A stretch of DNA of 64,000 nt from a virus, in IMG/VR virus record IMGVR_UViG_3300008216_000009, positions 1-64,000 of that record. One strand, given 5' to 3'. Below, piece after piece: positions 250-17,972 of this stretch; the first letter of the stretch is position 1, and every line of letters begins with the position of its first letter. The position numbers were made by a program, and so were the translations under genes. The notes beneath the pieces are model-generated. The model did not search any database. It worked only from the letters and a program-made list of their open reading frames with translations, and was not told where the DNA came from.

Positions 250-264
250 GTAAGGGAAAGATGT
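250..264 (+). repeat. Intercassette motif, copy a
   Basis: GTAAGGGAAAGATGT with CCCG (247-250) and CGGG (271-274) arms. It lies beyond the terminator of the first leftward cassette. Confidence 0.8.
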
Positions 265-294
265 AGATCCCGGGCGGCCAGGTACGGGAATAGG

Positions 295-318
295 AAAAGC
301 CCCCTAAAGGGGGCTTTT
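295..318. terminator. Bidirectional intrinsic terminator
   Basis: GCCCCC-TAAA-GGGGGC hairpin with AAAA on the left and TTTT on the right. It ends the leftward Hsp20 group and could stop rightward transcription from about 90. Confidence 0.85.
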
Positions 319-337
319 CAAGTTTATGAATCAATTA

Positions 338-435
338 CGGAGCAGGGAACGGGATAATATTGTGAGTCCCTGGTGAGAGTTTCACAGTGCACACCGTCGC
401 ACCCTTTCGTATATACACCTCTACGCCCTGCTCCG
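338..435 (-). ncRNA. Candidate structured RNA after the Hsp20 gene
   Basis: A 10-bp closing stem, CGGAGCAGGG (338-347) with CCCTGCTCCG (426-435), encloses about 78 nt with further short hairpins. It lies between the Hsp20 stop codon and the terminator. The same strand also encodes a possible 27-aa peptide (GTG at 418, stop at 335), so RNA versus small gene is unresolved. Confidence 0.4.
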
Positions 436-438
436 GGA

Positions 439-459
439 TAAACCCCCGTAGGGGGTTTA
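439..459 (-). terminator. Small hairpin over the Hsp20 stop codon
   Basis: TAAACCCCC-GTA-GGGGGTTTA hairpin whose arm contains the stop codon of 457-912. The U-run is short, so it may attenuate or protect the 3' end rather than fully terminate. Confidence 0.5.
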
Positions 460-912
460 CTCTACTGTCACCTCTATGATCCGAGGCTTGGTAGCCACAT
501 CCTCTGGGAAGGTTATGGATAGGATTCCAAGTTCAAGTGTCGCCTTCGGGTCCTCGGAGACATCCGCCCCACCTGGGATAGATACGGCGTATTGCTGTTT
601 GACCACTTCCTTGTTCTCATCGACCTCGATACTGTATTCCTTGACCACTACTCCCAGGGTACGGCCCACGGGGTCAACCCTGACCTCTATGTCCTCTTTC
701 TTAGTCCCAGGGACTTCTAGAGACAGAGTGTATCCATCAGTGTCATGGAAGAAGCCGGGAGTGTCCAGCATGGAAGCCCACCTGGCATTGCCCAATCGGC
801 TTATGAATGACTGAGGAATATTCCTATAGTCATCAGAGAGGAAGGCATTGTAAATCTTTTGTCTCGATAGGTTCTTCACTTTGTTCACCTTAACTACTGC
901 GTTATATACCAA
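457..912 (-). CDS. hsp20: Small heat-shock protein, Hsp20/alpha-crystallin family
   Basis: ATP-independent holdase that binds unfolding proteins and prevents aggregation in the cytoplasm. The 151-aa product has a short N-terminal arm and an alpha-crystallin domain from about residue 52. LEVPG at 65-69 and ATLELGILSITFPE at 124-137 match the conserved strands of the family, and the length is typical. It is the last gene of a leftward group with 929-1069 and 1066-1500, and a hairpin overlaps its stop codon. Hsp20 genes are established in T4-like cyanophages, so a phage copy is not anomalous; here it probably protects host or virion proteins during infection (inference). Confidence 0.93.
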   Translation of the reverse strand: MVYNAVVKVNKVKNLSRQKIYNAFLSDDYRNIPQSFISRLGNARWASMLDTPGFFHDTDGYTLSLEVPGTKKEDIEVRVDPVGRTLGVVVKEYSIEVDENKEVVKQQYAVSIPGGADVSEDPKATLELGILSITFPEDVATKPRIIEVTVE

Positions 913-928
913 TCTATTTTCTCCTTAG

Positions 929-1069
929 TTAGACTTTATTAGGTTTTACATTTACCCATGTCGTTTGGTTGTCCTTCGAGTTCTGTTTCAGAATGACAAA
1001 CAGGGTCGTCCATACGCCTGTACAAATCCCAAAGGTTCCAATAATCAATAGAACCTCGGCTATGCTCAT
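929..1069 (-). CDS. Small single-span membrane protein
   Basis: 46-aa product starting MSIAEVLL with one strongly hydrophobic segment (about 3-27) and a short polar tail. The start at 1069 is chosen because GGAGGT and AGGAG sites precede it and its ATG overlaps the stop of 1066-1500 as ATGA; the longer frame to 1129 lacks such a site. Function unknown; small phage membrane proteins often act on the host envelope, but nothing here identifies a target. Confidence 0.75.
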   Translation of the reverse strand: MSIAEVLLIIGTFGICTGVWTTLFVILKQNSKDNQTTWVNVKPNKV

Positions 1070-1500
1070 ACTCCTGACCTCCCTTCTAAGCCCTCTGTCT
1101 GCTCCGTAGAGCCGTTTTTTTGTATCCAAGCACCCTTGGTATCCAAAACTACTATTGGAGCCGATTTAACGACCTTCTCTGTTTCGACCTCATAGAAGTG
1201 GTCGGCACGGTAAGGGTTGTACTTGACCTGTACGTCGCACGGAGTCTCGAATGTCGTGAGGCTTGGCAGTGGTGCTATAACGCCTCGGACGAATGCATGG
1301 ACATTTTTTCGCTTCTCCGTCAGGACTCGCTTCCTACCACCAGGCTGAACTACGAATGTGGCATCCTTCACCAGTACGTTGTCCGAGTGAGTTATCACTC
1401 GTCCAGTAGTCCTGCTCCGTATGCTCCATGTGTTCTTGTGGAGGTTCTTATATACGTCCACCCTCACAGCGGACATAGGCATGTCGGTAATATCATTCAT
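1066..1500 (-). CDS. Conserved small phage protein, function unknown
   Basis: 144 aa. YKNLHKNTWSI near 17-27 and GRKRVLTEKRKNVHAFVRG at 55-73 resemble a family of uncharacterised tailed-phage proteins known to me only as hypothetical. An AAGGAG site precedes the ATG by about 10 nt. The gene is translationally coupled to 929-1069 by an ATGA overlap. A nested hairpin (1539-1604) separates it from the upstream gene, so expression may depend on readthrough from the promoter at 1832-1860. Confidence 0.8.
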   Translation of the reverse strand: MNDITDMPMSAVRVDVYKNLHKNTWSIRSRTTGRVITHSDNVLVKDATFVVQPGGRKRVLTEKRKNVHAFVRGVIAPLPSLTTFETPCDVQVKYNPYRADHFYEVETEKVVKSAPIVVLDTKGAWIQKNGSTEQTEGLEGRSGV

Positions 1501-1538
1501 AAACCATTAACTCCTTTTTGAATCATAACCATAAGCAT

Positions 1539-1604
1539 AAAAATAGGACTTACACTAACCGCTGTACTCAAACCCTTGCAAAGGACGGTTAGATGCCTAT
1601 TTTT
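1539..1604 (-). promoter_or_regulatory. Nested hairpin, terminator or attenuator
   Basis: Three nested pairings: AAAAATAGG/CCTATTTTT (1539-1547/1596-1604), CTAACCG/CGGTTAG (1555-1561/1586-1592) and apical CCTT/AAGG (1574-1584). On the minus strand it ends in a T-run, so it can act as a terminator or attenuator between 1604-1792 and 1066-1500. Confidence 0.65.
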
Positions 1605-1792
1605 TACGATGCCTTGGCTAGGCGTTTGATATCCGCCTTGTCCACCTTGCTTGTCCACAAGGCGACCCCTTTATGATCAACGAGGGATACCTCATACCAA
1701 CTATGCTGTTTAACACCGACTGCGATGTTGTACTGCTCGTTATCCTCAAATATCAATGTTGAATTCTTCTCTGCTGGTATCGTAATCTTCAA
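1604..1792 (-). CDS. Small protein of unknown function
   Basis: 62 aa, starting at a TTG codon (1792) six bases after AAGGAG. The frame stays open to an ATG at 1864, but that extension runs through the promoter at 1832-1860 and cannot be translated from it. The product is soluble, beta-strand-rich in its middle part and lysine-rich at the C-terminus. No family recognised. It is the first gene of its transcript. Confidence 0.7.
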   Translation of the reverse strand: MKITIPAEKNSTLIFEDNEQYNIAVGVKQHSWYEVSLVDHKGVALWTSKVDKADIKRLAKAS

Positions 1793-1831
1793 GTCGTACT
1801 CCTTCTCTGTATCTCTATTTGAACTATCTAC

Positions 1832-1860
1832 AGTATATAGGAAGACGACACACTTGTCAA
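1832..1860 (-). promoter_or_regulatory. Sigma70-type promoter
   Basis: -35 TTGACA (1855-1860), 17-bp spacer, -10 TATACT (1832-1837). Drives 1604-1792 and possibly the Hsp20 group. Confidence 0.88.
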
Positions 1861-1991
1861 GCACGTCTACACCGATACATGTGATACGAGCTAACTCAAG
1901 TTTACTGCTATGGATATTTCAAGTCAAGGATTTGTCTGGGTCCTGTCACCTGGGTCGAGGTCCCGGGGCGGACGTGGACCTCGAAGCTCAC

Positions 1992-2006
1992 GTAAGGGAA
2001 AGATGT
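1992..2006 (+). repeat. Intercassette motif, copy b
   Basis: GTAAGGGAAAGATGT. Direct arms are only CAC/GTG, but a separate 7-bp hairpin (GAGGTCC/GGACCTC) lies just to its left. Confidence 0.8.
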
Positions 2007-2033
2007 TGTGGGACCTGGGAGGGATCCCGGGCA

Positions 2034-2067
2034 ATAAAAAACCCGGAACCATAAAGATTCCGGGTTT
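2034..2067 (-). terminator. Intrinsic terminator
   Basis: ACCCGGAA/TTCCGGGT hairpin followed on the minus strand by a T-run. Ends the cassette 2092-4193. Confidence 0.9.
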
Positions 2068-2091
2068 CATTGGACCTGGGCTAGGGGCTAG

Positions 2092-2289
2092 TTAATCGTC
2101 ATCTGCCGGGTCGTCATCACTTGAGATGTTGTCCAGGGTGATTCCATCATTTGAATGGACGCTAACCCTTCCGTCATCGCTAACTGGAGCAAGGTACTGT
2201 TGAATCAGTTCCTCTGCTACAGCATAGGACTCAGCCTCTATCTCAAGGTCTACTTGCATGGATACGTCTGCTCTGTACGTGTAAGCCAT
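2092..2289 (-). CDS. Small acidic phage protein, function unknown
   Basis: 65 aa with a very acidic tail (SSDDDPADDD). An AAGGAT site precedes the ATG, which overlaps the upstream stop as TAATG. It is the last gene of a seven- to eight-gene leftward operon read from the promoters at 3718-3746 and 4222-4250. No motif assigns a function. Confidence 0.75.
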   Translation of the reverse strand: MAYTYRADVSMQVDLEIEAESYAVAEELIQQYLAPVSDDGRVSVHSNDGITLDNISSDDDPADDD

Positions 2290-2750
2290 TACTTTATCCT
2301 TTCGTTGAGTATGTCGATCTTGTCGCCGTGTGATTTGAGTAGGTAAGACTTCACGGTGTCGTCGTACTTTCGCTTCATTACGTGGTACTCACCGTCCTCA
2401 TAGACTTCGTCTGGAATACGAAAGAGTGTCTGAGTCTTGCATTTTCGCTTTAGGTCACGCTGCTCTTGGACATCGTCCACTAGCTCACCTATGTACGAAT
2501 CCAAGTCATGGTTAAGTTGTTTGTTTTCATACGACCAAGTGTGTGTTGCTGCTTCAGTTTCCATTTTCTGAAGTAAGTCCCTGTTCCAGCGACCATCCTT
2601 GTCTCGAACATCTACATCATTAGCACCACCATGACCATTGTTCTTGGCCTCTCCGACCTTTTTGCCATCAATGTAGACTGAGGCATTGAAGGCAATAGTC
2701 TCTTCGGATAGACCTGCGTAAATCTTGACGTTCTTTAGAGTGATGTCCAT
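2289..2750 (-). CDS. Uncharacterised phage protein with YIDGKKVGEAKN motif
   Basis: 153 aa. The N-terminal part has VYIDGKKVGEAKNNGHGG at 26-43, a Gly-rich turn I recall from several uncharacterised phage and bacterial proteins. The C-terminal half is charged and helical. It overlaps both neighbours by a base or two, implying translational coupling. Role unknown. Confidence 0.78.
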   Translation of the reverse strand: MDITLKNVKIYAGLSEETIAFNASVYIDGKKVGEAKNNGHGGANDVDVRDKDGRWNRDLLQKMETEAATHTWSYENKQLNHDLDSYIGELVDDVQEQRDLKRKCKTQTLFRIPDEVYEDGEYHVMKRKYDDTVKSYLLKSHGDKIDILNERIK

Positions 2751-3169
2751 TATGCTGTCACCTTTTCCTTTTCTCGGCTCTTCTCGAACATCTCGGCAAT
2801 TTGGATATTGCGGTTGATGTTCTCTACAGTAAACTTGTAGCTTTTACCTGTTCGGGTGTTATCGGCACTGACAGGATACTTCCGCCTTCTCAGGTTAAAG
2901 CCAGTGACTTTGAACTCCTCTCCGTTGGAGTTGAATACATGGCCCACATTGAACTTTGCCCCTATGTACTCGGCATCCCTGTTAGCGACCTTCTCCGCCA
3001 TAGCAGGAACATCTACCTTGAACGAGAGGGTAGCGGTATGACCTGCGTACCTGCCAGTGGCATATGATGCCGTCAAGCCGTACTTGTTCAAGGTACGCTG
3101 GATCACTACTTCTAGTTCATCACTGAGTATCCTGCACTCTGCTTTACCTATACTTTTGATCTTAGCCAT
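2750..3169 (-). CDS. Uncharacterised phage protein
   Basis: 139 aa, basic, mixed alpha/beta. A central segment (GFNLRRRKYPV near 90-100) resembles hypothetical phage proteins. The ATG overlaps the stop of 3169-3372 (TAATG). No catalytic motif visible. Confidence 0.75.
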   Translation of the reverse strand: MAKIKSIGKAECRILSDELEVVIQRTLNKYGLTASYATGRYAGHTATLSFKVDVPAMAEKVANRDAEYIGAKFNVGHVFNSNGEEFKVTGFNLRRRKYPVSADNTRTGKSYKFTVENINRNIQIAEMFEKSREKEKVTA

Positions 3170-3372
3170 TAGTTCACCTCACGGTTGTATTCTAATATGT
3201 CGTTGCGTAACTCTTGCATTGTTGGCATACCCTCTCCACCACCTGACCACGTTTCATTTATTAGGTCAGTTAGTTTGGTCAAGGCATCGGGATATTTATT
3301 GCCGTCACTAGCATGGTCAACTAACCACTTCTCGACTGCGACCTCAGATACTTGAATTGCGATTGTACTCAT
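3169..3372 (-). CDS. Small helical phage protein
   Basis: 67 aa, probably all-helical, with a Gly-rich WSGGGEGMP turn at 42-50. It starts directly after the stop of 3373-3477 and shares the GAGGTGAACTAA-type ribosome-binding context repeated in this operon. Function unknown. Confidence 0.75.
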   Translation of the reverse strand: MSTIAIQVSEVAVEKWLVDHASDGNKYPDALTKLTDLINETWSGGGEGMPTMQELRNDILEYNREVN

Positions 3373-3477
3373 TTAGTTCACCTCTTCCTCGCATGAGGGA
3401 CACGGACTATCAGTGGTATCTAAAAAATACTCCCCATGATCTTCGCATTCTCCGATTCCTATTCCTTTATTAGCCAT
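3373..3477 (-). CDS. 34-aa zinc-ribbon-like microprotein
   Basis: 34 aa (MANKGIGIGECEDHG... ending CPSCEEEVN). Cys11 and His14 with Cys26 and Cys29 form a likely zinc knuckle. It fills the gap between two overlapping genes: its ATG overlaps the stop of 3477-3692 and its stop abuts the start of 3169-3372. A GAGGTGAAC site precedes the start. Confidence 0.75.
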   Translation of the reverse strand: MANKGIGIGECEDHGEYFLDTTDSPCPSCEEEVN

Positions 3478-3692
3478 TAGTTCACCTCTATCTTGGACGG
3501 CTCTAGAATCTCCACAGGGAAGTTAAAGAGTTCATCCTTTAGGTACTGCATATCTGCTATGTCGCCACTCTCTCTGTGGACACCTTCCACCTTGCTCAAC
3601 TCTTTGATGCCGTAGTGCAAGGCACGGGCCATCATCAGCTTCCCTCGTGTACTCGATAAGAACCTTACAGCGTCTTCGGTTTCAATTGCCAT
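3477..3692 (-). CDS. Small phage protein, function unknown
   Basis: 71 aa beginning MAIETEDAV. AAGGAG lies six bases before the ATG at 3692; the frame extends further upstream only through the promoter at 3718-3746. Predicted helical and acidic. It may be the first gene of a sub-transcript covering 2092-3692. Confidence 0.75.
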   Translation of the reverse strand: MAIETEDAVRFLSSTRGKLMMARALHYGIKELSKVEGVHRESGDIADMQYLKDELFNFPVEILEPSKIEVN

Positions 3693-3717
3693 AACCACTC
3701 CTTTTCTATTTGTTAGT

Positions 3718-3746
3718 ATTATACCACCAGTTAGATTATTTGACAA
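3718..3746 (-). promoter_or_regulatory. Internal sigma70-type promoter
   Basis: -35 TTGTCA (3741-3746), 17-bp spacer, -10 TATAAT (3718-3723). It overlaps the end of 3736-3945 and would boost the downstream genes. Confidence 0.75.
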
Positions 3747-3945
3747 GCACATTAGTTGGATAGGCTTCTACTTCATCTGCATCAAGGTCATATGGTCTTA
3801 CTTCACAAACCTCGCAAATGTTTGAGTCATAAGCATTAGCCCTGCGCCCATAATTTAGGTCATTAGCAATCAGGTAGGTGCAGACTACGCACTCCCTCAC
3901 TTCGTATTGTTCCCTTACCGCATCAGTTACCATTTGTATCCACAT
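3736..3945 (-). CDS. Zinc-ribbon microprotein
   Basis: 69 aa. CVVC (19-22) and CEVC (44-47) are paired knuckles of a zinc ribbon. GGGGAG precedes the ATG, which overlaps the stop of 3945-4193. Such ribbons usually mediate protein or nucleic-acid contacts; no partner is evident. Confidence 0.75.
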   Translation of the reverse strand: MWIQMVTDAVREQYEVRECVVCTYLIANDLNYGRRANAYDSNICEVCEVRPYDLDADEVEAYPTNVLVK

Positions 3946-4193
3946 TAGGCTCCCCTTGCTTTTTTCTGCTCTGGAGTCTCACGCTCTTTGCATGATTTCA
4001 AGTCCTCGCAGAACGCTATCAGCATCCCTATGTCAGTAGGCTCCAAGTCAAAAACTCGCTTGTAGGCTCTGTCCCCCAACATACCGCTTGCTCGTGCTGC
4101 CAGCATGGCGAATCGTACATCGGGATGTATTGGGATGGAAATCTTCTCTCCGGTGTCCAACCTCTCTTGTAGCGTCTTTGTGTCTGTACTCAT
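3945..4193 (-). CDS. Small phage protein, function unknown
   Basis: 82 aa from ATG 4193 (MSTDTKTLQERL), with AAGGAG before it; upstream extension would cross the promoter at 4222-4250. Contains an IPIHPDVRFAMLAARASGM stretch and a basic C-terminus. First gene of the cassette ending at the terminator 2034-2067. Confidence 0.75.
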   Translation of the reverse strand: MSTDTKTLQERLDTGEKISIPIHPDVRFAMLAARASGMLGDRAYKRVFDLEPTDIGMLIAFCEDLKSCKERETPEQKKARGA

Positions 4194-4221
4194 TGACTCT
4201 CCTTCTCTATTTGATATCTTA

Positions 4222-4250
4222 ATTATATATGATAACACGCAACGTGTCAA
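4222..4250 (-). promoter_or_regulatory. Sigma70-type promoter
   Basis: -35 TTGACA (4245-4250), 17-bp spacer, -10 TATAAT (4222-4227). Confidence 0.88.
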
Positions 4251-4317
4251 GCACCACCCTGGATTTTCCTGGATCCGGTCCGCACTCGCAGCAGTGGACC
4301 AGGTCCCCCGGGGAGAC

Positions 4318-4332
4318 GTAAGGGAAAGATGT
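4318..4332 (+). repeat. Intercassette motif, copy c
   Basis: GTAAGGGAAAGATGT in the loop of CCCGG (4307-4311) / CCGGG (4333-4337). Confidence 0.82.
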
Positions 4333-4358
4333 CCGGGCTACCCAGGTCCGCACGAGAC

Positions 4359-4392
4359 AAAAAAAATCCCCCGGAAACTCCCAGGGGATTTT
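4359..4392 (-). terminator. Intrinsic terminator
   Basis: AATCCCC/GGGGATT hairpin with a T-run of eight on the minus strand; ends 4417-5211. Confidence 0.9.
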
Positions 4393-4416
4393 ACTTGAAT
4401 AGAATTGATGTTTACA

Positions 4417-5245: not shown

Positions 5246-5274
5246 AGTATACACTAAAATACGCAACCTGTCAA
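5246..5274 (-). promoter_or_regulatory. Sigma70-type promoter
   Basis: -35 TTGACA (5269-5274), 17-bp spacer, -10 TATACT (5246-5251); drives the GP88-like gene. Confidence 0.88.
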
Positions 5275-5315: not shown

Positions 5316-5330
5316 GTAAGGGAAAGATAT
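5316..5330 (+). repeat. Intercassette motif, copy d
   Basis: GTAAGGGAAAGATAT between CTGGG (5305-5309) and CCCAG (5339-5343). Confidence 0.8.
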
Positions 5331-5354: not shown

Positions 5355-5388
5355 CAAAAAAATCCCCGGTCCATAAAGAACCGGGGAG
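5355..5388 (-). terminator. Intrinsic terminator
   Basis: TCCCCGGT/ACCGGGGA hairpin followed by a minus-strand T-run. Confidence 0.9.
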
Positions 5389-5391
5389 TTT

Positions 5392-6637: not shown

Positions 6638-6666
6638 AGTATACAGGAAAACATGACATCTGTCAA
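6638..6666 (-). promoter_or_regulatory. Sigma70-type promoter
   Basis: -35 TTGACA (6661-6666), 17-bp spacer, -10 TATACT (6638-6643). Confidence 0.88.
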
Positions 6667-6727: not shown

Positions 6728-6742
6728 GTAAGGGAAAGATGT
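6728..6742 (+). repeat. Intercassette motif, copy e
   Basis: GTAAGGGAAAGATGT looped out by GGAGG (6724-6728) / CCTCC (6743-6747). Confidence 0.82.
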
Positions 6743-6773
6743 CCTCCGGCGGAATGGACCTATTCCGGGCACA

Positions 6774-6809
6774 GAAAAGCCCCACCCAGGACGATGGCCC
6801 AGGTGGGGC
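6774..6809 (-). terminator. Intrinsic terminator
   Basis: GCCCCACC/GGTGGGGC hairpin followed by TTTT on the minus strand; ends 6914-7607. Confidence 0.88.
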
Positions 6810-7636: not shown

Positions 7637-7665
7637 AGTATACTCCTATTCTTAACACCTGTCAA
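7637..7665 (-). promoter_or_regulatory. Sigma70-type promoter
   Basis: -35 TTGACA (7660-7665), 17-bp spacer, -10 TATACT (7637-7642). Confidence 0.88.
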
Positions 7666-7717: not shown

Positions 7718-7732
7718 GTAAGGAAAAGATGT
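7718..7732 (+). repeat. Intercassette motif, copy f
   Basis: GTAAGGAAAAGATGT in the loop of a perfect 7-bp stem, CCCGGGA (7710-7716) / TCCCGGG (7732-7738). First copy with A at position 7. Confidence 0.88.
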
Positions 7733-7767: not shown

Positions 7768-7795
7768 TAAAAAAAGGGATGGGAAATCCCATCCC
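7768..7795 (-). terminator. Intrinsic terminator
   Basis: GGGATGGG/CCCATCCC hairpin with a minus-strand T-run of seven. Confidence 0.9.
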
Positions 7796-7830
7796 CCGTT
7801 CGGGGCACTTAAATTAAAATGGAGAGCGAG

Positions 7831-8783: not shown

Positions 8784-8812
8784 AGTATACCGTTAAGATA
8801 GGGGTATGTCAA
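8784..8812 (-). promoter_or_regulatory. Sigma70-type promoter
   Basis: -35 TTGACA (8807-8812), 17-bp spacer, -10 TATACT (8784-8789), followed by ACTAGTATACTG. Confidence 0.88.
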
Positions 8813-8872: not shown

Positions 8873-8887
8873 GTAAGGAAAAGATAT
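8873..8887 (+). repeat. Intercassette motif, copy g
   Basis: GTAAGGAAAAGATAT. Only a weak GCGG/CCGC pairing flanks it. Confidence 0.75.
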
Positions 8888-8915
8888 AGCCGCCGGGGTC
8901 CTTTTCCGGGCAAAG

Positions 8916-8953
8916 AAAAACCCCGGAATCTTGATTTACCAGGATTCCGGGGC
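8916..8953 (-). terminator. Intrinsic terminator
   Basis: CCCCGGAATC/GATTCCGGGG hairpin followed by TTTTT on the minus strand. Confidence 0.9.
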
Positions 8954-10094: not shown

Positions 10095-10123
10095 AGTATA
10101 CAGGAAAAACAGTATCGTGTCAA
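10095..10123 (-). promoter_or_regulatory. Sigma70-type promoter
   Basis: -35 TTGACA (10118-10123), 17-bp spacer, -10 TATACT (10095-10100). Confidence 0.88.
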
Positions 10124-10165: not shown

Positions 10166-10180
10166 GTAAGGAAAAGATGT
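10166..10180 (+). repeat. Intercassette motif, copy h
   Basis: GTAAGGAAAAGATGT between CCCGG (10156-10160) and CCGGG (10182-10186), with GGG/CCC continuing beyond one mismatch. Confidence 0.83.
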
Positions 10181-10206: not shown

Positions 10207-10232
10207 AAGAAAAAGCCCGGTATTAACCGGGC
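10207..10232 (-). terminator. Intrinsic terminator
   Basis: GCCCGGTT/AACCGGGC hairpin followed by TTTTT on the minus strand; lies just past the tRNA. Confidence 0.9.
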
Positions 10233-10242
10233 CAGGTGTGTG

Positions 10243-10928: not shown

Positions 10929-10957
10929 AGTATAAAGCATTAGCCTACATCTGTCAA
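10929..10957 (-). promoter_or_regulatory. Sigma70-type promoter
   Basis: -35 TTGACA (10952-10957), 17-bp spacer, -10 TATACT (10929-10934). Confidence 0.88.
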
Positions 10958-11091: not shown

Positions 11092-11106
11092 GTAAGGAAA
11101 AGATGT
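11092..11106 (+). repeat. Intercassette motif, copy i
   Basis: GTAAGGAAAAGATGT inside a composite stem: GGACC (11080-11084) with GGTCC (11113-11117), and GGGG with CCCC (11108-11111). Confidence 0.84.
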
Positions 11107-11132
11107 TCCCCAGGTCCAGAAGTCCCAGACAC

Positions 11133-11160
11133 AAAAAAAGCCCCAGCTTTTGCCGGGACT
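11133..11160 (-). terminator. Intrinsic terminator
   Basis: AGTCCCGGC/GCTGGGGCT (9 bp with wobbles) and a T-run of seven on the minus strand. Confidence 0.87.
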
Positions 11161-11167
11161 TGGGTTT

Positions 11168-11540: not shown

Positions 11541-11569
11541 AGTATACACTATTATCAGACATCTGTCAA
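11541..11569 (-). promoter_or_regulatory. Sigma70-type promoter
   Basis: -35 TTGACA (11564-11569), 17-bp spacer, -10 TATACT (11541-11546). Confidence 0.88.
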
Positions 11570-11626: not shown

Positions 11627-11641
11627 GTAAGGAAAAGATGT
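11627..11641 (+). repeat. Intercassette motif, copy j
   Basis: GTAAGGAAAAGATGT looped out by GGAGAG (11621-11626) / CTCTCC (11647-11652), with outer CTGGT/ACCAG pairing. Confidence 0.87.
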
Positions 11642-11667
11642 GGGATCTCTCCAGGACCAGCGGGCAC

Positions 11668-11692
11668 AAAAAAAGCCCGGGATTTCCCGGGC
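11668..11692 (-). terminator. Intrinsic terminator
   Basis: GCCCGGGA/TCCCGGGC hairpin with a T-run of seven on the minus strand. Confidence 0.92.
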
Positions 11693-11718
11693 ATAAGTTT
11701 CTGACGGACCGGTCCAGA

Positions 11719-12373: not shown

Positions 12374-12402
12374 AGGATACACTAAAACGTAACATCTGTC
12401 AA
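12374..12402 (-). promoter_or_regulatory. Sigma70-type promoter
   Basis: -35 TTGACA (12397-12402), 17-bp spacer, -10 TATCCT (12374-12379). Confidence 0.83.
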
Positions 12403-12494: not shown

Positions 12495-12509
12495 GTAAGG
12501 AAAAGATGT
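12495..12509 (+). repeat. Intercassette motif, copy k
   Basis: GTAAGGAAAAGATGT inside a perfect 8-bp stem, GGACCCCC (12471-12478) / GGGGGTCC (12513-12520). Confidence 0.87.
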
Positions 12510-12535
12510 ACCGGGGGTCCCGGCTTCGCCAGGGC

Positions 12536-12562
12536 AAAAAAATTCCCCTCTTAAAAGAGGGG
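12536..12562 (-). terminator. Intrinsic terminator
   Basis: CCCCTCTT/AAGAGGGG hairpin followed by a short minus-strand T-run. Confidence 0.87.
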
Positions 12563-12573
12563 ATGTATTCTAC

Positions 12574-13022: not shown

Positions 13023-13026
13023 CTAT

Positions 13027-13055
13027 AGGATACACTAAAATAGGTGCTATGTCAA
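13027..13055 (-). promoter_or_regulatory. Sigma70-type promoter
   Basis: -35 TTGACA (13050-13055), 17-bp spacer, -10 TATCCT (13027-13032). Confidence 0.83.
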
Positions 13056-13127
13056 GTAGGTCGGAAAACTGAGACTCCAGATATTCCTGGCTTTGTATAG
13101 CCTGGGTAGTTCCCGGTGAGCCAGGTC

Positions 13128-13142
13128 GTAAGGAAAAGATGT
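13128..13142 (+). repeat. Intercassette motif, copy l
   Basis: GTAAGGAAAAGATGT with inner CCAG (13121-13124) / CTGG (13144-13147) and outer CCCGG/CCGGG pairing. Confidence 0.82.
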
Positions 13143-13169
13143 ACTGGGGTCCGGCTCCGCCGGGGCAAA

Positions 13170-13192
13170 GAAAAACCCCTCTTTTGAGGGGT
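13170..13192 (-). terminator. Intrinsic terminator
   Basis: ACCCCTC/GAGGGGT hairpin followed by TTTT on the minus strand. Confidence 0.87.
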
Positions 13193-13209
13193 AGTGGTAG
13201 TTTTATAGT

Positions 13210-13258
13210 ATGCCTCATATGTTTTTTAGGCTCTCAGAGGCGTTCTGAGGCGGTTATG
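13210..13258 (-). ncRNA. 3' RNA element B, copy 2 (pseudoknot-like)
   Basis: Stem CTCAGA-ACGCC-TCTGAG (compensatory change against copy 1), the same A-rich linker and GAGGCAT. Lies after 13274-13495. Confidence 0.6.
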
Positions 13259-13273
13259 CCACCCTACCCTACC

Positions 13274-13495: not shown

Positions 13496-13553
13496 TTGGT
13501 TTTTGTCCTTTCCCAGAGGGCGAGAGAGTGCCTCTGTAATATCCGACTACCTA
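13496..13553 (-). promoter_or_regulatory. Shared leader C, copy 2
   Basis: ATAGGTAGTCG start, CAGAGG/CCTCTG hairpin and CTGGGAAAGGACAAAAACC end; close relative of 12963-13022. Confidence 0.6.
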
Positions 13554-13554
13554 T

Positions 13555-13583
13555 AGTATAAAGGAAAACACGCAATATGTCAA
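13555..13583 (-). promoter_or_regulatory. Sigma70-type promoter
   Basis: -35 TTGACA (13578-13583), 17-bp spacer, -10 TATACT (13555-13560). Confidence 0.88.
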
Positions 13584-13631
13584 GTGTCTGCCTCGAATAC
13601 TCCTGGGAGGATCCTAGTCCTCCCGGGAAGG

Positions 13632-13646
13632 GTAAGGAAAAGATAT
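13632..13646 (+). repeat. Intercassette motif, copy m
   Basis: GTAAGGAAAAGATAT; CTCC (13620-13623) and GGAG (13660-13663) can pair around it. Confidence 0.78.
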
Positions 13647-13679
13647 GCCAGGTCCCCCAGGAGCCTCGAAGCTCCCAGC

Positions 13680-13709
13680 AAAAAAAATCCCGGTAAAATA
13701 CCGGGATTT
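13680..13709 (-). terminator. Intrinsic terminator
   Basis: ATCCCGGTA/TACCGGGAT hairpin with a T-run of seven on the minus strand. Confidence 0.92.
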
Positions 13710-13732
13710 CTTCAACAGTTAGGGCTGTCTAT

Positions 13733-13819
13733 TTATTTAATTGTTTTGTTCCATGCCTTAGTTAGCTCACGTTTCAGTTCAGATACCTTGCATTTAATTA
13801 CGAATTGTCGCTTATGCAT
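13733..13819 (-). CDS. 28-aa basic microprotein
   Basis: MHKRQFVIKC then KVSELKRELTKAWNKTIK: a basic amphipathic helix. Its ATG overlaps the end of 13812-14072 by 8 nt and AGAGG lies about 7 nt before it. Small size leaves doubt. Confidence 0.5.
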   Translation of the reverse strand: MHKRQFVIKCKVSELKRELTKAWNKTIK

Positions 13820-14072
13820 ATGCTGCCTCTGGATTGAATATACTTTCCCATTTACCCATCATGTCACTCCAACGCCCTCGGACTGCATTCTCAGTGTCAT
13901 GGACTTCGTAGTCTACGAACCCTTGGTCATCCTCTAGGATGATGCCATAGAGGCCGTCAGTGATGATTAGGGCTGACCAGAATCCCTCTACCTGACAGGA
14001 GCCATACTCTTCCTCTGCAAAGCCGTTCATTGCTACGTCGTTTAGCTTTTCCGAAATTGCGTCGTACTTCAT
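13812..14072 (-). CDS. Small acidic phage protein
   Basis: 86 aa from ATG 14072 (MKYDAISEKL), AAAGGG before it, ATGA overlap with 14069-14287. Acidic, with a GIILEDDQGFVDYEVHDTENA stretch compatible with a small beta sheet. Function unknown. Confidence 0.75.
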   Translation of the reverse strand: MKYDAISEKLNDVAMNGFAEEEYGSCQVEGFWSALIITDGLYGIILEDDQGFVDYEVHDTENAVRGRWSDMMGKWESIFNPEAAYA

Positions 14073-14287
14073 TCTAGTTCCCTTTCGTTGCTGAGTTCTC
14101 CACACACACATTCTGTGATTCTAGGGATGAATTTCAAGCTACATTCGCATATGTTCAACTTGGTGTCTTCTACGAAAGACTTACACTCAGGACACTGGAA
14201 TAGCCTACGGTCTTCGCATTCCGTGTAGTGCTTCTCGTCCACCCAAGGTGGGTCTACTGGTAGGTCAACTACGATGTCTTGGTTCAT
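14069..14287 (-). CDS. Zinc-ribbon phage protein
   Basis: 72 aa from ATG 14287 (MNQDIVVDLP). CPEC at about 32-35 with paired CEC and CVC further on suggest one or two zinc sites. AGGAG precedes the ATG; the frame extends to 14374 only inside the upstream gene. Confidence 0.75.
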   Translation of the reverse strand: MNQDIVVDLPVDPPWVDEKHYTECEDRRLFQCPECKSFVEDTKLNICECSLKFIPRITECVCGELSNERELE

Positions 14288-14289
14288 TT

Positions 14290-14463
14290 TTATGCTCCTA
14301 TGTAATCGCTGGCTGAGCAATCCCAGCATATGGTCAGAGTCTCGTCTAGGTTCGTCCCCGTACATTCTGGGCATTCTCGATTGGCCCGCATTAGTTGTTT
14401 CTTGAGTTTAGCTACTAACTTCATTGTGTCGTTTACTAGGCTATTTCTTTGTATGTTATTCAT
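14290..14463 (-). CDS. 57-aa zinc-ribbon microprotein
   Basis: N-terminal basic helix (MNNIQRNS...KLVAKLKKQL) followed by CPEC and CWDC knuckles about 12 residues apart. AAGG precedes the ATG, which overlaps the upstream stop (TGATG). Below usual ORF cut-offs but well supported by packing and the zinc motif. Confidence 0.78.
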   Translation of the reverse strand: MNNIQRNSLVNDTMKLVAKLKKQLMRANRECPECTGTNLDETLTICWDCSASDYIGA

Positions 14464-14612
14464 CAGTTTCTCACCTTACTTGTTTTGATCTTGATGTCCT
14501 TGATAGCATCTTGATCACGGATGACATCGTTGATGTCGATGTCGCTCTCACTGACCTTGCCATCGTACTCCATCTCGTAGATTACCGTGACCTTGACCTT
14601 TGTGTTTTCCAT
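14463..14612 (-). CDS. 49-aa phage protein, paralogue of 16302-16487
   Basis: TKVKVTVIYEMEYDGKV near the N-terminus and NDVIRDQ in the middle align with TKVKVVVEYELVYDEKI and NDIVRDP of 16302-16487. GGGAGGG precedes the ATG. First gene of a five-gene cassette. Role unknown. Confidence 0.78.
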   Translation of the reverse strand: MENTKVKVTVIYEMEYDGKVSESDIDINDVIRDQDAIKDIKIKTSKVRN

Positions 14613-14647
14613 GGATTCGCCCTCCCTTGTGTTTGGTCTACCCTCTG

Positions 14648-14676
14648 ATTATACTCTCATTCTTTACATGTGTCAA
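14648..14676 (-). promoter_or_regulatory. Sigma70-type promoter
   Basis: -35 TTGACA (14671-14676), 17-bp spacer, -10 TATAAT (14648-14653). Confidence 0.88.
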
Positions 14677-14740
14677 GTGTTTATTTGACCAATTTTACTT
14701 GGATTTGGACCCCGTCCCGGTTCCTGGTAGAGCTTAGAGG

Positions 14741-14755
14741 GTAAGGAAAAGATAT
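14741..14755 (+). repeat. Intercassette motif, copy n
   Basis: GTAAGGAAAAGATAT between TCCTG (14722-14726) and CAGGA (14764-14768). Last copy of the A7 class. Confidence 0.8.
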
Positions 14756-14780
14756 GTCCCGGGCAGGAGGATTCCAGGGC

Positions 14781-14808
14781 AAAAAAAATCCCGGCTCGAA
14801 GCCGGGAT
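14781..14808 (-). terminator. Intrinsic terminator
   Basis: ATCCCGGC/GCCGGGAT hairpin with a T-run of eight on the minus strand. Confidence 0.92.
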
Positions 14809-14826
14809 AGGGGGGGATTACGAGGA

Positions 14827-15201
14827 TTACTCGTAGTGGGGCCGATAGGCGGGGTATTCTTCGCCAGGATGGTCTTCTACCCTGATTTCATAGCTACCAG
14901 ATGTTACCAACTCGCCTGGGAATTCTGTTGGGACATCCATCGTATCCAGATAGTTTACGCCGTTAGCGTCGTGTGTGTAGCTGTAGGCATATTCTGATTT
15001 GTTGGAATATTTGGCACTCAGAATAGATTCCCAGTGTCCCGCAGGACATAGGTCGCCGTGGACATACTCGGACTCAGACTCGACACAGGTGGTCGCCTTG
15101 CTCACAACTGGAGTACCACATGTGTAGTACCAGCCACCCTCCTCTGCACCGCCGTAGCGACGTTCGGTAGAATATACATTTACGAAAACTGTGTTGCTCA
15201 T
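14827..15201 (-). CDS. Uncharacterised phage protein with RRYGGAEEGGWYY motif
   Basis: 124 aa, Tyr-rich. ERRYGGAEEGGWYYTCGTPV at 13-32 resembles a hypothetical phage family. Two or three Cys may bind metal. It has a 140-nt leader holding RNA element A copy 3, and its own promoter and terminator. Confidence 0.78.
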   Translation of the reverse strand: MSNTVFVNVYSTERRYGGAEEGGWYYTCGTPVVSKATTCVESESEYVHGDLCPAGHWESILSAKYSNKSEYAYSYTHDANGVNYLDTMDVPTEFPGELVTSGSYEIRVEDHPGEEYPAYRPHYE

Positions 15202-15261
15202 TTTATCTCCCTGTGTTTTGGTTCTGGGCAGTAGCTCGGATGTGACATTGGACTGGGTTGA

Positions 15262-15325
15262 GAGCCTCTAGGGTCTGATGGCTAGTCCCCTGAGTTATGT
15301 CAGGTAGGGGGCACTCCCCCGACTC
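15262..15325 (-). ncRNA. Four-helix RNA element A, copy 3 (5' leader)
   Basis: P1 GAGTC/GGCTC (plus CTGGG/CCCAG outside), P2 GGGGG-AGTG-CCCCC, P3 CCTGA-CATAAC-TCAGG, P4 CTAG/CTAG. Helices differ from the other copies by paired changes while the loop and the CCCCTACC / AGGGGA core persist. Confidence 0.68.
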
Positions 15326-15351
15326 CCCAGCCCCATCCTCACTACATTAGT

Positions 15352-15380
15352 AGTATACCACGATTCCTTACATGTGTCAA
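15352..15380 (-). promoter_or_regulatory. Sigma70-type promoter
   Basis: -35 TTGACA (15375-15380), 17-bp spacer, -10 TATACT (15352-15357). Confidence 0.88.
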
Positions 15381-15449
15381 GTCTTTTGGTCCCGGGTTTT
15401 TAACTTGAGTCCTGGGCCAGGAGGAACTTGCAGTAAATGCAATATGGGT

Positions 15450-15464
15450 GTAAGGGAAAGCTGT
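15450..15464 (+). repeat. Intercassette motif, copy o
   Basis: GTAAGGGAAAGCTGT between CAGTA (15431-15435) and TACTG (15464-15468). First copy of the C12 class. Confidence 0.8.
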
Positions 15465-15472
15465 ACTGGATC

Positions 15473-15512
15473 CTTTGAGTTTTTACCCGGGTAAAAAGCC
15501 TTACCAGGGTTC
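15473..15512 (-). terminator. Weak terminator-like hairpin
   Basis: CCCTGGTAA/TTACCCGGG (one mismatch) just past the stop of 15517-15783; no proper T-run follows on the minus strand. Confidence 0.5.
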
Positions 15513-15516
15513 CTCT

Positions 15517-15783
15517 CTATTTTAGATACTCCCTCACAATGGCTTTTAGGTCTACCATTCCTCGCTTTGGCTCCCCTAAGATGAAGTCTAGGCACTTTTG
15601 GATATTCTGGAGGGACATGCTGCCGTGAGTGCAGAAACGCTTTATTCGTTCAATTCCTTCGACTACTGTTACGAATTGACCGATTGCCACGATTTCGTAA
15701 TTCCCTACTTGTAGACTATGATTCCAGTCTCCATCTCGGATTTCGTTCAGGCTTAGAGGATTTCCGTTCTTTGTGATTGCCAT
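15517..15783 (-). CDS. Small phage protein, function unknown
   Basis: 88 aa; GAGGAG precedes the ATG. Beta-rich N-terminus (WNHSLQVGNYEIVAIGQFVTVV) and helical C-terminus. Unlike its neighbours it has no TTGACA box upstream; only a weak GATAAT is seen, so its expression may differ. Confidence 0.72.
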   Translation of the reverse strand: MAITKNGNPLSLNEIRDGDWNHSLQVGNYEIVAIGQFVTVVEGIERIKRFCTHGSMSLQNIQKCLDFILGEPKRGMVDLKAIVREYLK

Positions 15784-15934
15784 AGTTTTTCTCCTCTTAG
15801 TTACTTTTCTTATCTACTCTCATTATCTATGACGACGCCCAGAAGTCGGCCAGTACCTACCCAGTATCCATCCAGATGTGAGGCAGGTTTGGCCCAGAGA
15901 TGGCCCAGTTCCTGGAGGTATAGTGCACGATGGG

Positions 15935-15949
15935 GTAAGGGAAAGCTGT
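15935..15949 (+). repeat. Intercassette motif, copy p
   Basis: GTAAGGGAAAGCTGT inside CCTGGAGG (15911-15918) / CCTCCCAGG (15954-15962), 8 bp with one bulge. Confidence 0.84.
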
Positions 15950-15979
15950 GTTCCCTCCCAGGGACCGAAATCCGGGCAC

Positions 15980-16036
15980 AAAAAAGCCCTGACCTCATAG
16001 CTTCGCCTTTTGTAGGCTCCACGGTTCGTCAGGGCT
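15980..16036 (-). terminator. Intrinsic terminator with long apical loop
   Basis: AGCCCTGAC/GTCAGGGCT with about 34 nt in the loop and TTTTTT on the minus strand. A separate ACTCCGT/ACGGAGT hairpin follows at 16038-16055. Confidence 0.82.
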
Positions 16037-16055
16037 GACTCCGTTAGTACGGAGT

Positions 16056-16141
16056 TTCGGTAACTGCCCCTGCAGTGTATGTATATTTAATGGTAGTCAG
16101 ACTTTAACTTCGCATTTCAATACTCCTCAGTGCTGCTGTCG
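16056..16141 (-). other. Possible broken small gene
   Basis: A frame overlapping the stop of 16142-16300 as ATGA reads MTTAALRSIEMRS, TAA, then SLTTIKYTYTAGAVTETPY and a stop at about 16046. It may be a remnant interrupted by one stop codon, or noise. Confidence 0.25.
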
Positions 16142-16300
16142 TCATTCTGATTTGTCCTTCCGTTTTCCCCATCCTGCCAGTTCCCGTTGTTTAGCTACTT
16201 CGGGATCTGAGGTAGCAAACCTGCGTATTCGTTCTGTTACTTCACGCTGCCTGATTTCCTCTTTGGCCTGTTCGATGGACATGTATGTAATTGTTGGCAC
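16142..16300 (-). CDS. 52-aa basic helical phage protein
   Basis: Starts at GTG 16300, five bases after AAGGAG and one base after the stop of 16302-16487. Highly charged helix (EQAKEEIRQREVTERIRRF). An internal ATG (MSIEQ) six codons in is less well placed. Function unknown. Confidence 0.72.
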   Translation of the reverse strand: MPTITYMSIEQAKEEIRQREVTERIRRFATSDPEVAKQRELAGWGKRKDKSE

Positions 16301-16301
16301 A

Positions 16302-16487
16302 TTAGCTCCTTACAGTCTTAAATTCTACGTCATGTATAGAGACGATATTGCGGGGGTCTCGAACAATATCATTGAAGTCCACGATGTCGCTGACGTTGTC
16401 CTTATCTATTTTCTCATCATAGACCAATTCGTACTCCACGACCACTTTGACTTTGGTTCCTGTCTGCTTCTTGAGTAGCCCTAGCAT
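16302..16487 (-). CDS. Small phage protein, paralogue of 14463-14612
   Basis: 61 aa. TKVKVVVEYELVYDEKI and NDIVRDP align with the 49-aa product of 14463-14612. AAGGAG precedes the ATG. First gene of its cassette. Function unknown. Confidence 0.78.
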   Translation of the reverse strand: MLGLLKKQTGTKVKVVVEYELVYDEKIDKDNVSDIVDFNDIVRDPRNIVSIHDVEFKTVRS

Positions 16488-16519
16488 TGCGTCACTCCTT
16501 CTTAATTGGTTCTACAGTC

Positions 16520-16548
16520 ATTGTACACCTATTTCCTACATGTGTCAA
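16520..16548 (-). promoter_or_regulatory. Sigma70-type promoter
   Basis: -35 TTGACA (16543-16548), 17-bp spacer, -10 TACAAT (16520-16525). Confidence 0.85.
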
Positions 16549-16556
16549 GCATTGCC

Positions 16557-16588
16557 TATAGCTAAGAAAACCAATCTCAAAGCAATTT
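16557..16588 (-). promoter_or_regulatory. Repeated upstream promoter element, copy 3
   Basis: Plus-strand TATAGCTAAGAAAACCAATC-TCAAAGCAATTT upstream of the -35 box; see 10967-10998. Confidence 0.5.
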
Positions 16589-16646
16589 CCTACTCCCCCT
16601 ACCCGACCTGGGAGAACCCGTGAATCGGTCCCTCCGCCCGGGAGGG

Positions 16647-16661
16647 GTAAGGGAAAGCTGT
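16647..16661 (+). repeat. Intercassette motif, copy q
   Basis: GTAAGGGAAAGCTGT; CCTGGG (16607-16612) and CCCAGG (16667-16672) can enclose it. Confidence 0.8.
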
Positions 16662-16713
16662 GGTGGCCCAGGTGTTCGTGCCAGGGGCTGTTTTGGGGTT
16701 TGTCCGGGGCTAT

Positions 16714-16760
16714 GCCACAAAAGTGGCACAAAAAAACCCCAGGCAGAAATGCCTGGGGCT
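16714..16760 (-). terminator. Intrinsic terminator with a second hairpin
   Basis: CCCCAGGC/GCCTGGGG (16737-16758) followed by a T-run of seven on the minus strand, then a GCCAC/GTGGC hairpin (16714-16727). Confidence 0.92.
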
Positions 16761-16790
16761 TGTGCGGTGTTTGCTGTATTTTAAGTGTAC

Positions 16791-16967
16791 TTAGGCACTC
16801 CGTTTCCTCTTGTACTCTCGATACTCTGAATTGCTGAGTCCGTTGATGTACTCTCGATGTACCTTGAGTAGCAACTTAAAGTCGTGGAGTAGTTCCTCTC
16901 TTGGGTTCAATTCTCCATCGTTGAAATATCCCATTGCGTCGCCTAGTGTTAGTTCGTCTTCACGCAT
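16791..16967 (-). CDS. Small phage protein, function unknown
   Basis: 58 aa from ATG 16967 (MREDELTLGD), overlapping the end of 16960-17193 by 8 nt, with GGAG eight bases upstream. Acidic N-terminus, basic C-terminus (YREYKRKRSA). Last gene of a four-gene cassette. Confidence 0.74.
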   Translation of the reverse strand: MREDELTLGDAMGYFNDGELNPREELLHDFKLLLKVHREYINGLSNSEYREYKRKRSA

Positions 16968-17193
16968 TTCCGTTTCTCCGTTTCTGCCAGTAGGTGTCAA
17001 AGATTTCTCCCTGCTCTACCCGTCTGCCCAATGTTGTCTCAAGTTTAATCCATTCCCTGAGAATCTCATTCTCCCGCTTACGGGATTCTGATGGAGATGC
17101 TTCGCCGTCCATGTGTAGATTCTCTGGCTCCAATCGGATTACCAGATTGAAAAACTTACTGAATAGCTCGTTAGGTATGGTCGTCTTTATCAT
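16960..17193 (-). CDS. Small phage protein, function unknown
   Basis: 77 aa, helical and charged, with no motif recognised. GGTGAG precedes the ATG; it ends inside the next gene's start. Confidence 0.74.
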   Translation of the reverse strand: MIKTTIPNELFSKFFNLVIRLEPENLHMDGEASPSESRKRENEILREWIKLETTLGRRVEQGEIFDTYWQKRRNGNA

Positions 17194-17194
17194 T

Positions 17195-17380
17195 TTAGTT
17201 TCTCACCATCCGTTCAATTCCTTTAATCATCCGACTATGTTTTCTCATCCTAGCCGGAGAAACATGGTTCCAGTTGCAATCCCCACAGCATAATCCTTCT
17301 GCAACTGGAGATGCATCGTAGCCCCATGAACCCTTAACTGAGTGATTTGCTATGGGATTCTTGCAGATAACGCATTGCAT
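17195..17380 (-). CDS. Zinc-binding phage protein
   Basis: 61 aa. CVIC (3-6) and CCGDC (31-35) plus His39 form a treble-clef-like zinc site reminiscent of HNH-type folds, but too short for a nuclease. GGGTGAG precedes the ATG. Confidence 0.76.
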   Translation of the reverse strand: MQCVICKNPIANHSVKGSWGYDASPVAEGLCCGDCNWNHVSPARMRKHSRMIKGIERMVRN

Positions 17381-17381
17381 G

Positions 17382-17666
17382 TCAGTCTCTCACCCTTCTC
17401 TCCCGCTGGCTCCACAGGCCCGTGTATACCTCTTTAATCATCTTTGCAGCCTCGTCCTGATTCGACCCGTAGACCACTACTCGCCCCAACTCATCGACAC
17501 TGAGCCTCTCAACGCCGTCTGCGGGGCATTCTAGGATGGTTACCCACTTGCCAGAGAGTGTGGCGGGATAGTTGTCGGCAGCGTCCAGTTCCGACTCTCC
17601 CATTGACCAGTAGCCCTCGTCAGACCTTATCACGAACAATTTCTCCGCTGTAGCCGATGTCTTCAA
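17382..17666 (-). CDS. Small phage protein, function unknown
   Basis: 94 aa starting at TTG 17666 behind AAGGAG. Mixed alpha/beta; contains GYWSMGESELDAADNYPATL. No family recognised. First gene of the cassette. Confidence 0.74.
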   Translation of the reverse strand: MKTSATAEKLFVIRSDEGYWSMGESELDAADNYPATLSGKWVTILECPADGVERLSVDELGRVVVYGSNQDEAAKMIKEVYTGLWSQRERRVRD

Positions 17667-17705
17667 AGCAGTCTCCTTCGCCGTCAGGGTTGTGTTACAT
17701 CTCTA

Positions 17706-17734
17706 ATTGTACACTATAACAAGACACGTGTCAA
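17706..17734 (-). promoter_or_regulatory. Sigma70-type promoter
   Basis: -35 TTGACA (17729-17734), 17-bp spacer, -10 TACAAT (17706-17711). Confidence 0.85.
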
Positions 17735-17825
17735 GCACAATTCAAGGGCAATTTTACCTGTATTTGGAAATTGGTCAGTCTCCCCTGCCCGGATACCCCC
17801 GTGGACCCTGGGTGGCCCGGGGGCG

Positions 17826-17840
17826 GTAAGGGAAAGCTGT
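17826..17840 (+). repeat. Intercassette motif, copy r
   Basis: GTAAGGGAAAGCTGT in the loop of an 11-bp stem, GGCCCGGGGGC (17814-17824) / GCCCCTGGGCC (17845-17855). Strongest hairpin and last copy of the array. Confidence 0.9.
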
Positions 17841-17972
17841 AGTGGCCCCTGGGCCTTCCCCGCTCCACCCTCGCTCCATCGTTTGTGGCAATGCCACACC
17901 TTTTTCGTAGCTGTTGCCCTGGGTACGCCCCACCTATGCCTCATCTGTGTCGGAGCTATATAAAGTTTTATA

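Follow-up and report, generated by a model that had tools for sequence, protein, structure and literature searches.

A short oriented motif behind the early terminators of an uncultured marine phage, possibly a polar roadblock to transcription

Introduction

The stoperators of cluster A mycobacteriophages, which are sites for the L5 repressor, are short (13-15 bp) asymmetric sequences, found in twenty or so copies, in one orientation, within short intergenic gaps. They are distributed genome-wide, including operator copies at promoters. When bound by the immunity repressor they halt elongation, and reversal of an L5 stoperator abolishes this effect (PMC9283540; see also PMC6550527). In eukaryotic rDNA, the terminators of RNA polymerase I (Pol I) consist of a hairpin, a T-rich tract and an oriented site for Reb1, Nsi1 or TTF-I. 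Pol I halts 15 bp before it reaches the Reb1/Nsi1 site, and by then the hairpin lies 20 nt back from the RNA 3' end (PMC12366685). The promoter-early stem-loop cassettes (PeSLs) of T4-type phages have a terminator stem-loop and an early promoter at the junctions of a hypervariable early region. In integron attC arrays, short repeats in a common orientation delimit many small cassettes. Here we describe a 15-nt motif which is repeated at the boundaries of early transcription units in an uncultured marine virus of bacteria and shares features with all of these systems. The window which we have analyzed comprises 64,000 nt, bases 1-64000 of the 95.6-kb IMG/VR record IMGVR_UViG_3300008216_000009, labelled G000. 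The motif is also found in a distantly related phage, labelled G004.

Results

The motif is present in 18 exact copies, all on one strand. Its gene-strand (minus) reading is A[CT]A[TG]CTTT[CT]CCTTAC. The array genes lie on the minus strand, so that the motif in gene direction is ACATCTTTYCCTTAC. On this strand, copies 1 to 14 are found at 250..264 (the 3'-most copy), 1992..2006, 4318..4332, 5316..5330, 6728..6742, 7718..7732, 8873..8887, 10166..10180, 11092..11106, 11627..11641, 12495..12509, 13128..13142, 13632..13646 and 14741..14755. Copies 15 to 18, all of the AGC variant, are found at 15450..15464, 15935..15949, 16647..16661 and 17826..17840 (the 5'-most copy). When up to three mismatches are allowed, the window contains 28 matches: The 18 exact copies and 10 others with two or three mismatches. 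Since 10.7 matches are expected by chance, all except the 18 are background. No further copy is found in the remainder of the 95.6-kb record. These 18 copies are also the only ones in the overlapping record G001, hence there are none outside 250-17840 in the 138-kb map of this phage. A preliminary description of the window had correctly listed 18 copies in the same orientation and none beyond 17.9 kb. It had counted 18 gene cassettes, however 18 sites bound 17 cassettes. It had also considered that a motif common inside genes would speak against a role as a cassette site, and we have found all 18 copies in intergenic positions and confined to the array.

Read on the gene strand, a junction shows the end of a gene, a GC hairpin, a U-tract, a spacer, the motif, 42-135 nt of variable length, a promoter similar to TTGACA-N17-TATAMT and the next gene or genes. 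An intrinsic terminator precedes the motif in all 18 copies, the most distant one at 142 nt. Conversely, all 15 strong array-strand terminators between 2.0 and 16.8 kb are followed by the motif, and the same is true for nearly all those in the G004 array. In 14 of the 18 copies the core motif lies 34-38 nt from the start of the U-tract; this distance is 43 and 45 nt in two more, 77 and 142 nt in the remaining two. Identity between the spacers of different copies is near random (31%, compared with 28.5% after shuffling). With a near-fixed spacing and a near-random spacer, it is the length that has been kept, not the sequence.

The link with promoters is looser. A sigma-70 promoter, defined as at least 10 of the 12 consensus bases within 200 nt downstream of the motif, follows 16 of the 18 copies. 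The exceptions are copy 16 (15935) and copy 1 (250), where no promoter-like sequence rises above background within 200 nt downstream. The preliminary description had placed the motif always between a terminator and the next promoter: The terminator holds in every case, the promoter does not. The 3'-most copy follows a terminator and has no promoter within 200 nt in both phages. The 5'-most G000 copy (17826) lies nearer to its promoter (92 nt) than to its terminator (142 nt). The motif never covers the core of a sigma-70 promoter, and it is absent at the internal array promoters which have no preceding terminator (6455, 7382 and 9687). Many repeated blocks within the arrays start exactly where the motif ends on its promoter side, and extend back through the spacer and the terminator. 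The near-fixed distance to the U-tract, the promoterless 3' ends, the absence at internal promoters and the repeated blocks all tie the motif to the ends of units in the early array more closely than to their starts. Strong terminators without the motif are present at about 20 kb, so the motif is a feature of the array and not of termination in general.

The terminators, whose spans are approximate, are located on the minus strand at 2034..2069, 4359..4394, 5355..5390, 6771..6806, 7768..7803, 8913..8948, 10207..10242, 11132..11167, 11667..11702, 12535..12570, 13168..13203, 13680..13715 and 14781..14816 (upstream of copies 2 to 14), 15978..16013 and 16729..16764 (copies 16 and 17) and 17973..18008 (142 nt upstream of copy 18). 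The terminator of copy 8 comes just after a tRNA-Tyr gene (GTA anticodon, 10243-10330, minus strand), which belongs to one of the cassettes. The promoters, on the same strand, are found at 1832..1860 (TTGACA-N17-TATACT), 4222..4250, 5246..5274, 6638..6666, 7637..7665, 8784..8812, 10095..10123, 10929..10957, 11541..11569, 12374..12402, 13027..13055, 13555..13583, 14648..14676 and 15352..15380 after copies 2 to 15, and at 16520..16548 and 17706..17734 (both TTGACA-N17-TACAAT) after copies 17 and 18.

In G004 we have found 23 copies of the core AKCTTTTCCTTA, on one strand only, all of them within 55.8-72.0 kb of a 141-kb genome. This region is syntenic with the early region of G000, and the copies are again located after terminators and before promoters. 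Only two of them overlap genes, in both cases unlikely antisense open reading frames (ORFs). The spacing between U-tract and motif is 19-22 nt in 11 of the 23 copies and 29-37 nt in 6 others. Two copies at the array end, 55891 and 55832, follow a terminator and have no promoter near. The core genes which flank the arrays are largely syntenic between both phages, with roughly 30-65% protein identity (83% for the capsid protein). The arrays themselves have in common a phosphatase family (DSPc), one small family and a few marginal matches only. The motif has therefore outlived both the genes it separates and the surrounding sequence, which indicates that selection acts on the motif itself. From this comparison we conclude that it is a real boundary element. 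The preliminary description had foreseen trouble for a cassette-site role if relatives kept the same genes with decayed motifs. The opposite is found: G004 has kept the motif and changed the genes. The conserved, oriented, intergenic element which it proposed is found in both phages, with 18 of 18 and 23 of 23 copies in a single orientation.

The motif variants form three blocks along the G000 array (permutation p about 5e-6), and the T/G variant is also clustered in G004 (p about 1.6e-4). In both phages the upstream end of the array carries the AGC form, and its downstream end the ATC form. This order does not look like that of freely shuffled cassettes. It could correspond to a graded affinity along the array or to descent by position.

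No hairpin or covariation is found at the motif in G000 or G004. Folding z-scores across it average -0.6 in G000 and +0.3 in G004, with no excess pairing in either genome. The absence of secondary structure makes it likely that the motif is recognized as linear duplex DNA. A hairpin with the motif in its loop was rejected, since pairing between cis arms is not better than between trans arms (p about 0.1). The stem-like, palindromic look of the G000 junctions comes from flanks loaded with CCNGG (110 occurrences, 14 expected) and GGWCC (39, compared with 6.5 expected). In the flanks within positions 1-18000, about 70 nt on either side of the copies, these words reach 43.7 and 15.5 per kb, and such clusters are found almost nowhere else in the genome. 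The flanks are not essential, since the G004 motif is found without CCSGG-rich flanks. We also rejected a reading of the other strand (TAAGGNAAAGATG) as a Shine-Dalgarno sequence with a start codon, because 8 of the 18 copies and about half of those in G004 have no ATG.

We have scanned IMG/VR with a pattern of terminator plus motif. Among the matches listed, clusters are found only in the phage of the window and in G004; the rest are singletons, at about the level of chance. Relatives fetched through their dCMP deaminase, methyltransferase and L5-gp82-like proteins do not contain the motif. Most capsid relatives are fragments which end short of the early region, so their lack of the motif is uninformative. 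Among the sequences which could be searched, most relatives being short fragments, two phage species carry the motif.

Record G001 (105,383 bp) is 99.99% identical to G000 over two stretches, and from these overlaps both records appear to close into a circle of about 138,290 bp. The G004 genome (141,341 bp) is probably complete, since its ends overlap by 29 bp. The phage of the window has an SU10-like capsid protein and codes for a family A DNA polymerase, a DnaB-like helicase, RecA, a ribonucleotide reductase and two C5-cytosine DNA methyltransferases. It is probably not a T4-type phage. Its promoters and terminators are of the bacterial type. A DNA search against isolated phages gave no match, its capsid protein has no close match among isolated phages, and a capsid search of GTDB genomes for a host or prophage found none. 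The best isolated-virus matches of the capsid protein (43885-45201, plus strand) are archaeal tailed viruses, with 22-28% identity, despite the bacterial look of promoters and terminators.

Comparison with known systems

Judged on the features we have compared, the array does not belong with stoperators, PeSLs or attC arrays: Each of them fails at least one. Like stoperators, the motif is short, asymmetric and present in twenty or so co-oriented copies in short intergenic gaps. Unlike them, it is confined to the early array, is never found at a promoter core, always follows an intrinsic terminator, mostly precedes a promoter, and has an unrelated sequence. We have recognized no repressor in this phage and no sign that it is temperate. 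With Pol I terminators the motif shares the order of the parts, an oriented site and, in G000, a distance of about 35 nt between hairpin and site. The system here is a bacterial sigma-70 one in a phage; the comparison is one of geometry, not of homology.

PeSLs have the same succession of terminator (before 18 of 18 copies here) and promoter (at least 10 of 12 consensus bases, after 16 of 18). Their conserved part is different: In our array it is a linear 15-mer, neither a stem-loop nor a promoter, and the hairpin region and the spacer are near shuffled identity. In addition, PeSLs belong to T4-type phages. The attC arrays differ in having a foldable site. Most of the cassettes described here carry their own promoter and terminator, and no IntI-type integrase was recognized among the early-region proteins scanned. 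The preliminary description had noted a resemblance to PeSLs and integrons and a match with neither; the lack of a conserved PeSL unit and of an attC hairpin bears this out. The motif also differs from nut/boxA antitermination sites, as it is placed after a terminator and before the next promoter and has no hairpin. The best reading would be that it works like a stoperator or like the Reb1/TTF-I site of Pol I, while being a member of neither.

Discussion

We suggest, with a probability of about 0.4, that the motif is a polar DNA-bound roadblock, a fail-safe terminator which stops read-through. A unit would then consist of its gene or genes, an intrinsic terminator, a spacer, the 15-bp site and the promoter of the next unit, each copy acting as a one-way linear DNA binding site which completes an early transcription unit. 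A putative protein, coded by the phage or by its host, would bind the site and act as the roadblock. A polymerase which has slipped past the terminator hairpin, or has only just formed it, would be halted at the U-tract or just beyond it and then released. In this way about twenty packed units with strong sigma-70 promoters would be kept from reading into each other. The same protein might also be used to shut down the early array. Protein binding, the stopping of polymerase and the purpose of the motif are what we infer here. As the motif is linear and directional, it is simplest to assume a protein which meets the polymerase from one side, and the single orientation of all 18 and all 23 copies would make sense if it matters from which side the polymerase arrives. 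The published Pol I distances add up (15 bp plus 20 nt) to about 35 nt between hairpin and Reb1/Nsi1 site, which is the spacing seen in G000. The spacing of about 20 nt in G004 would halt the polymerase inside the U-tract. As for the DNA-level role put forward in the preliminary description, protein binding and control of read-through fit best, and recombination or cassette mobility is less probable.

Several points weigh against this reading. The match with Pol I was noticed after the distances had been measured, which makes it an argument rather than a test. Spacing is not equal in both phages, three G004 sites lie at 54-64 nt from the terminator, and the 5'-most G000 copy is far from its terminator and nevertheless has a promoter. 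Intrinsic terminators as strong as these may need no help, and those at about 20 kb do without the motif. The motif is also compatible with any DNA-binding role which avoids transcribed sequence. Finally, no binding protein could be tied to it among the conserved or helix-turn-helix (HTH) proteins of the phage at 27914-28882, 33072-33689, 24816-25253 and 25232-25624.

One of these proteins has features of its own. The 145 amino acid protein at 24816-25253 (minus strand) shows a weak match to the tudor-like part of PcrA/UvrD and a transposase-type HTH. The tudor-like part is the one with which those helicases bind RNA polymerase. The HTH part has paralogues at 25232-25624 and elsewhere in the genome.

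If the motif were instead a boundary for gene exchange, where homologous or site-specific short recombination swaps or duplicates early units as proposed for PeSLs or as in integrons, sites on both sides of every cassette, including the promoterless 3' end, would be expected, and they are found. The almost complete replacement of array genes between two phages with syntenic core genes points in the same direction, as do a G004 repeat which ends at the motif edge and the adjacent cassettes 12495-13128 and 13128-13632, which share 133 nt from the motif edge and about 98 nt near their 5' ends. These two cassettes (12495-13632) have different central genes between shared ends, like a diverged tandem duplication between sites. 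We nevertheless consider exchange unlikely. The DUF7227 gene, with 76% DNA identity to that of another phage, matches inside the ORF only and not from motif to motif. The motif is conserved while its flanks are not, so that the motif itself must be under selection. No stem-loop of the attC or PeSL kind or other hairpin is present, and the order of the variants along the array is not scrambled but runs the same way in both phages. No integrase was recognized among the early-region proteins, which were scanned without taking every protein singly; a weak SAM-like match in one protein of a mixed set was left untraced. A regulatory site for the downstream unit (an operator, a site for an activator or a second promoter used by a polymerase which the phage encodes or has modified, serving a second early wave) would agree with the position of most copies upstream of a promoter, in the same orientation, and with the 5' end of the G000 array, where the promoter is the closer neighbor. 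This role is also doubtful: The -35 box can be as near as about 10 nt or as far away as 135 nt, the promoter core is never overlapped, and no other column is conserved at a fixed downstream distance, except for the GC-rich flank in G000. Besides, neither genome has the motif in any other transcription unit or at internal promoters, and the 3'-most copies have no adjacent promoter.

Much less probable is an element similar to nut/boxA or ops, acting in the RNA or on the elongating complex, by which a polymerase that has read through would become resistant to terminators and transcribe the array in relay. The motif is oriented with transcription, would be transcribed by read-through polymerase only and is pyrimidine-rich on the non-template strand. 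Antitermination sites are normally located downstream of a promoter and upstream of the terminators, whereas here the RNA from each promoter has its own terminator first and the motif behind it. A processive system would have no need of a copy at every boundary, and there is no hairpin partner. We give as little credit to an architectural role in replication, partition, fork arrest or the binding of a nucleoid protein in transcriptionally quiet gaps. The copies are clustered, intergenic and in one orientation, and non-coding repeats or unusual regions adjoin the upstream end of the array in G004 and G000, but such a role leaves unexplained the near-fixed terminator distance in G000 and the one-to-one link with unit ends.

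The regions next to the arrays can be described as follows. In G004, about 2.3 kb of apparently non-coding DNA (74.2-76.6 kb, corresponding to L074:14200-16600) adjoins the upstream end of the array. It consists of alternating units of about 18 bp, AATGAATCA-N8-10-AGTAYCA-N8-10, with a full period of 36 bp and unique short spacers. The same repeat is found in L261 at about 2-7 kb. Its sequence resembles that of an origin, iteron or centromere. At the equivalent place in the phage of the window, positions 20300-22000 have no confident genes and are rich in C/G runs and CACAT words.

Other uncultured phages contain repeated elements at similar places. We have scanned the loci around relatives of an array gene (1066-1500, minus strand) of the mycobacteriophage L5 gp82 family (Pfam PF25735), whose homologues are widespread in uncultured phages; in G004 this gene lies outside the array. 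Unrelated repeated elements, mostly dyads, are found at unit junctions in L347, L338 and L342. In L347 (IMGVR_UViG_3300020042_010648) the dyad element TTTACCTAGGCNNNGCNNCCTGGNNTAGGTAAA has 8-9 copies at unit junctions, mostly in one orientation, and it is also matched in L353, L355 and L356. Like our motif, these dyad elements (TTTACCTAGGC..CCTGG..TAGGTAAAA in L347, and those of L338 and L342) are repeated shortly after terminators at junctions; unlike it, they have dyad symmetry, and their sequences are unrelated to it. Repeated junction elements in L338, L342, L205 and L284 include GGCTGTGGAACAGCC with a further 60 or so conserved nt, CCGGGCCAGGCCCGG and conserved promoter-like blocks. G005 (L092), a more distant relative (49% identity in the major capsid protein), has 13 co-oriented copies of AAAATTTAGAAAAA in an early-type region (64.6-72.0 kb of its record), in gaps between terminator and promoter and also beside start codons.

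The presence of unrelated repeats at the same position in other phages suggests that many phage groups may have boundary elements behind their early terminators, with a different sequence in each group. Such elements may be a general feature of phage accessory regions which has been overlooked. More tentatively, it is possible that phages of the group described here have a dedicated polar roadblock as a third terminator part, so that hairpin, U-tract and an oriented protein site at a set distance form the equivalent, in a virus of bacteria, of the Pol I/Reb1 terminator and insulate an early array whose genes can be swapped. If the roadblock reading is true, it would show how some twenty strong early promoters can be packed head to tail without transcriptional interference, and it would provide a natural hairpin-plus-roadblock terminator in bacteria. 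As the sites remain in place when the intervening genes are replaced, the upkeep of an exchangeable early-gene region would become testable.

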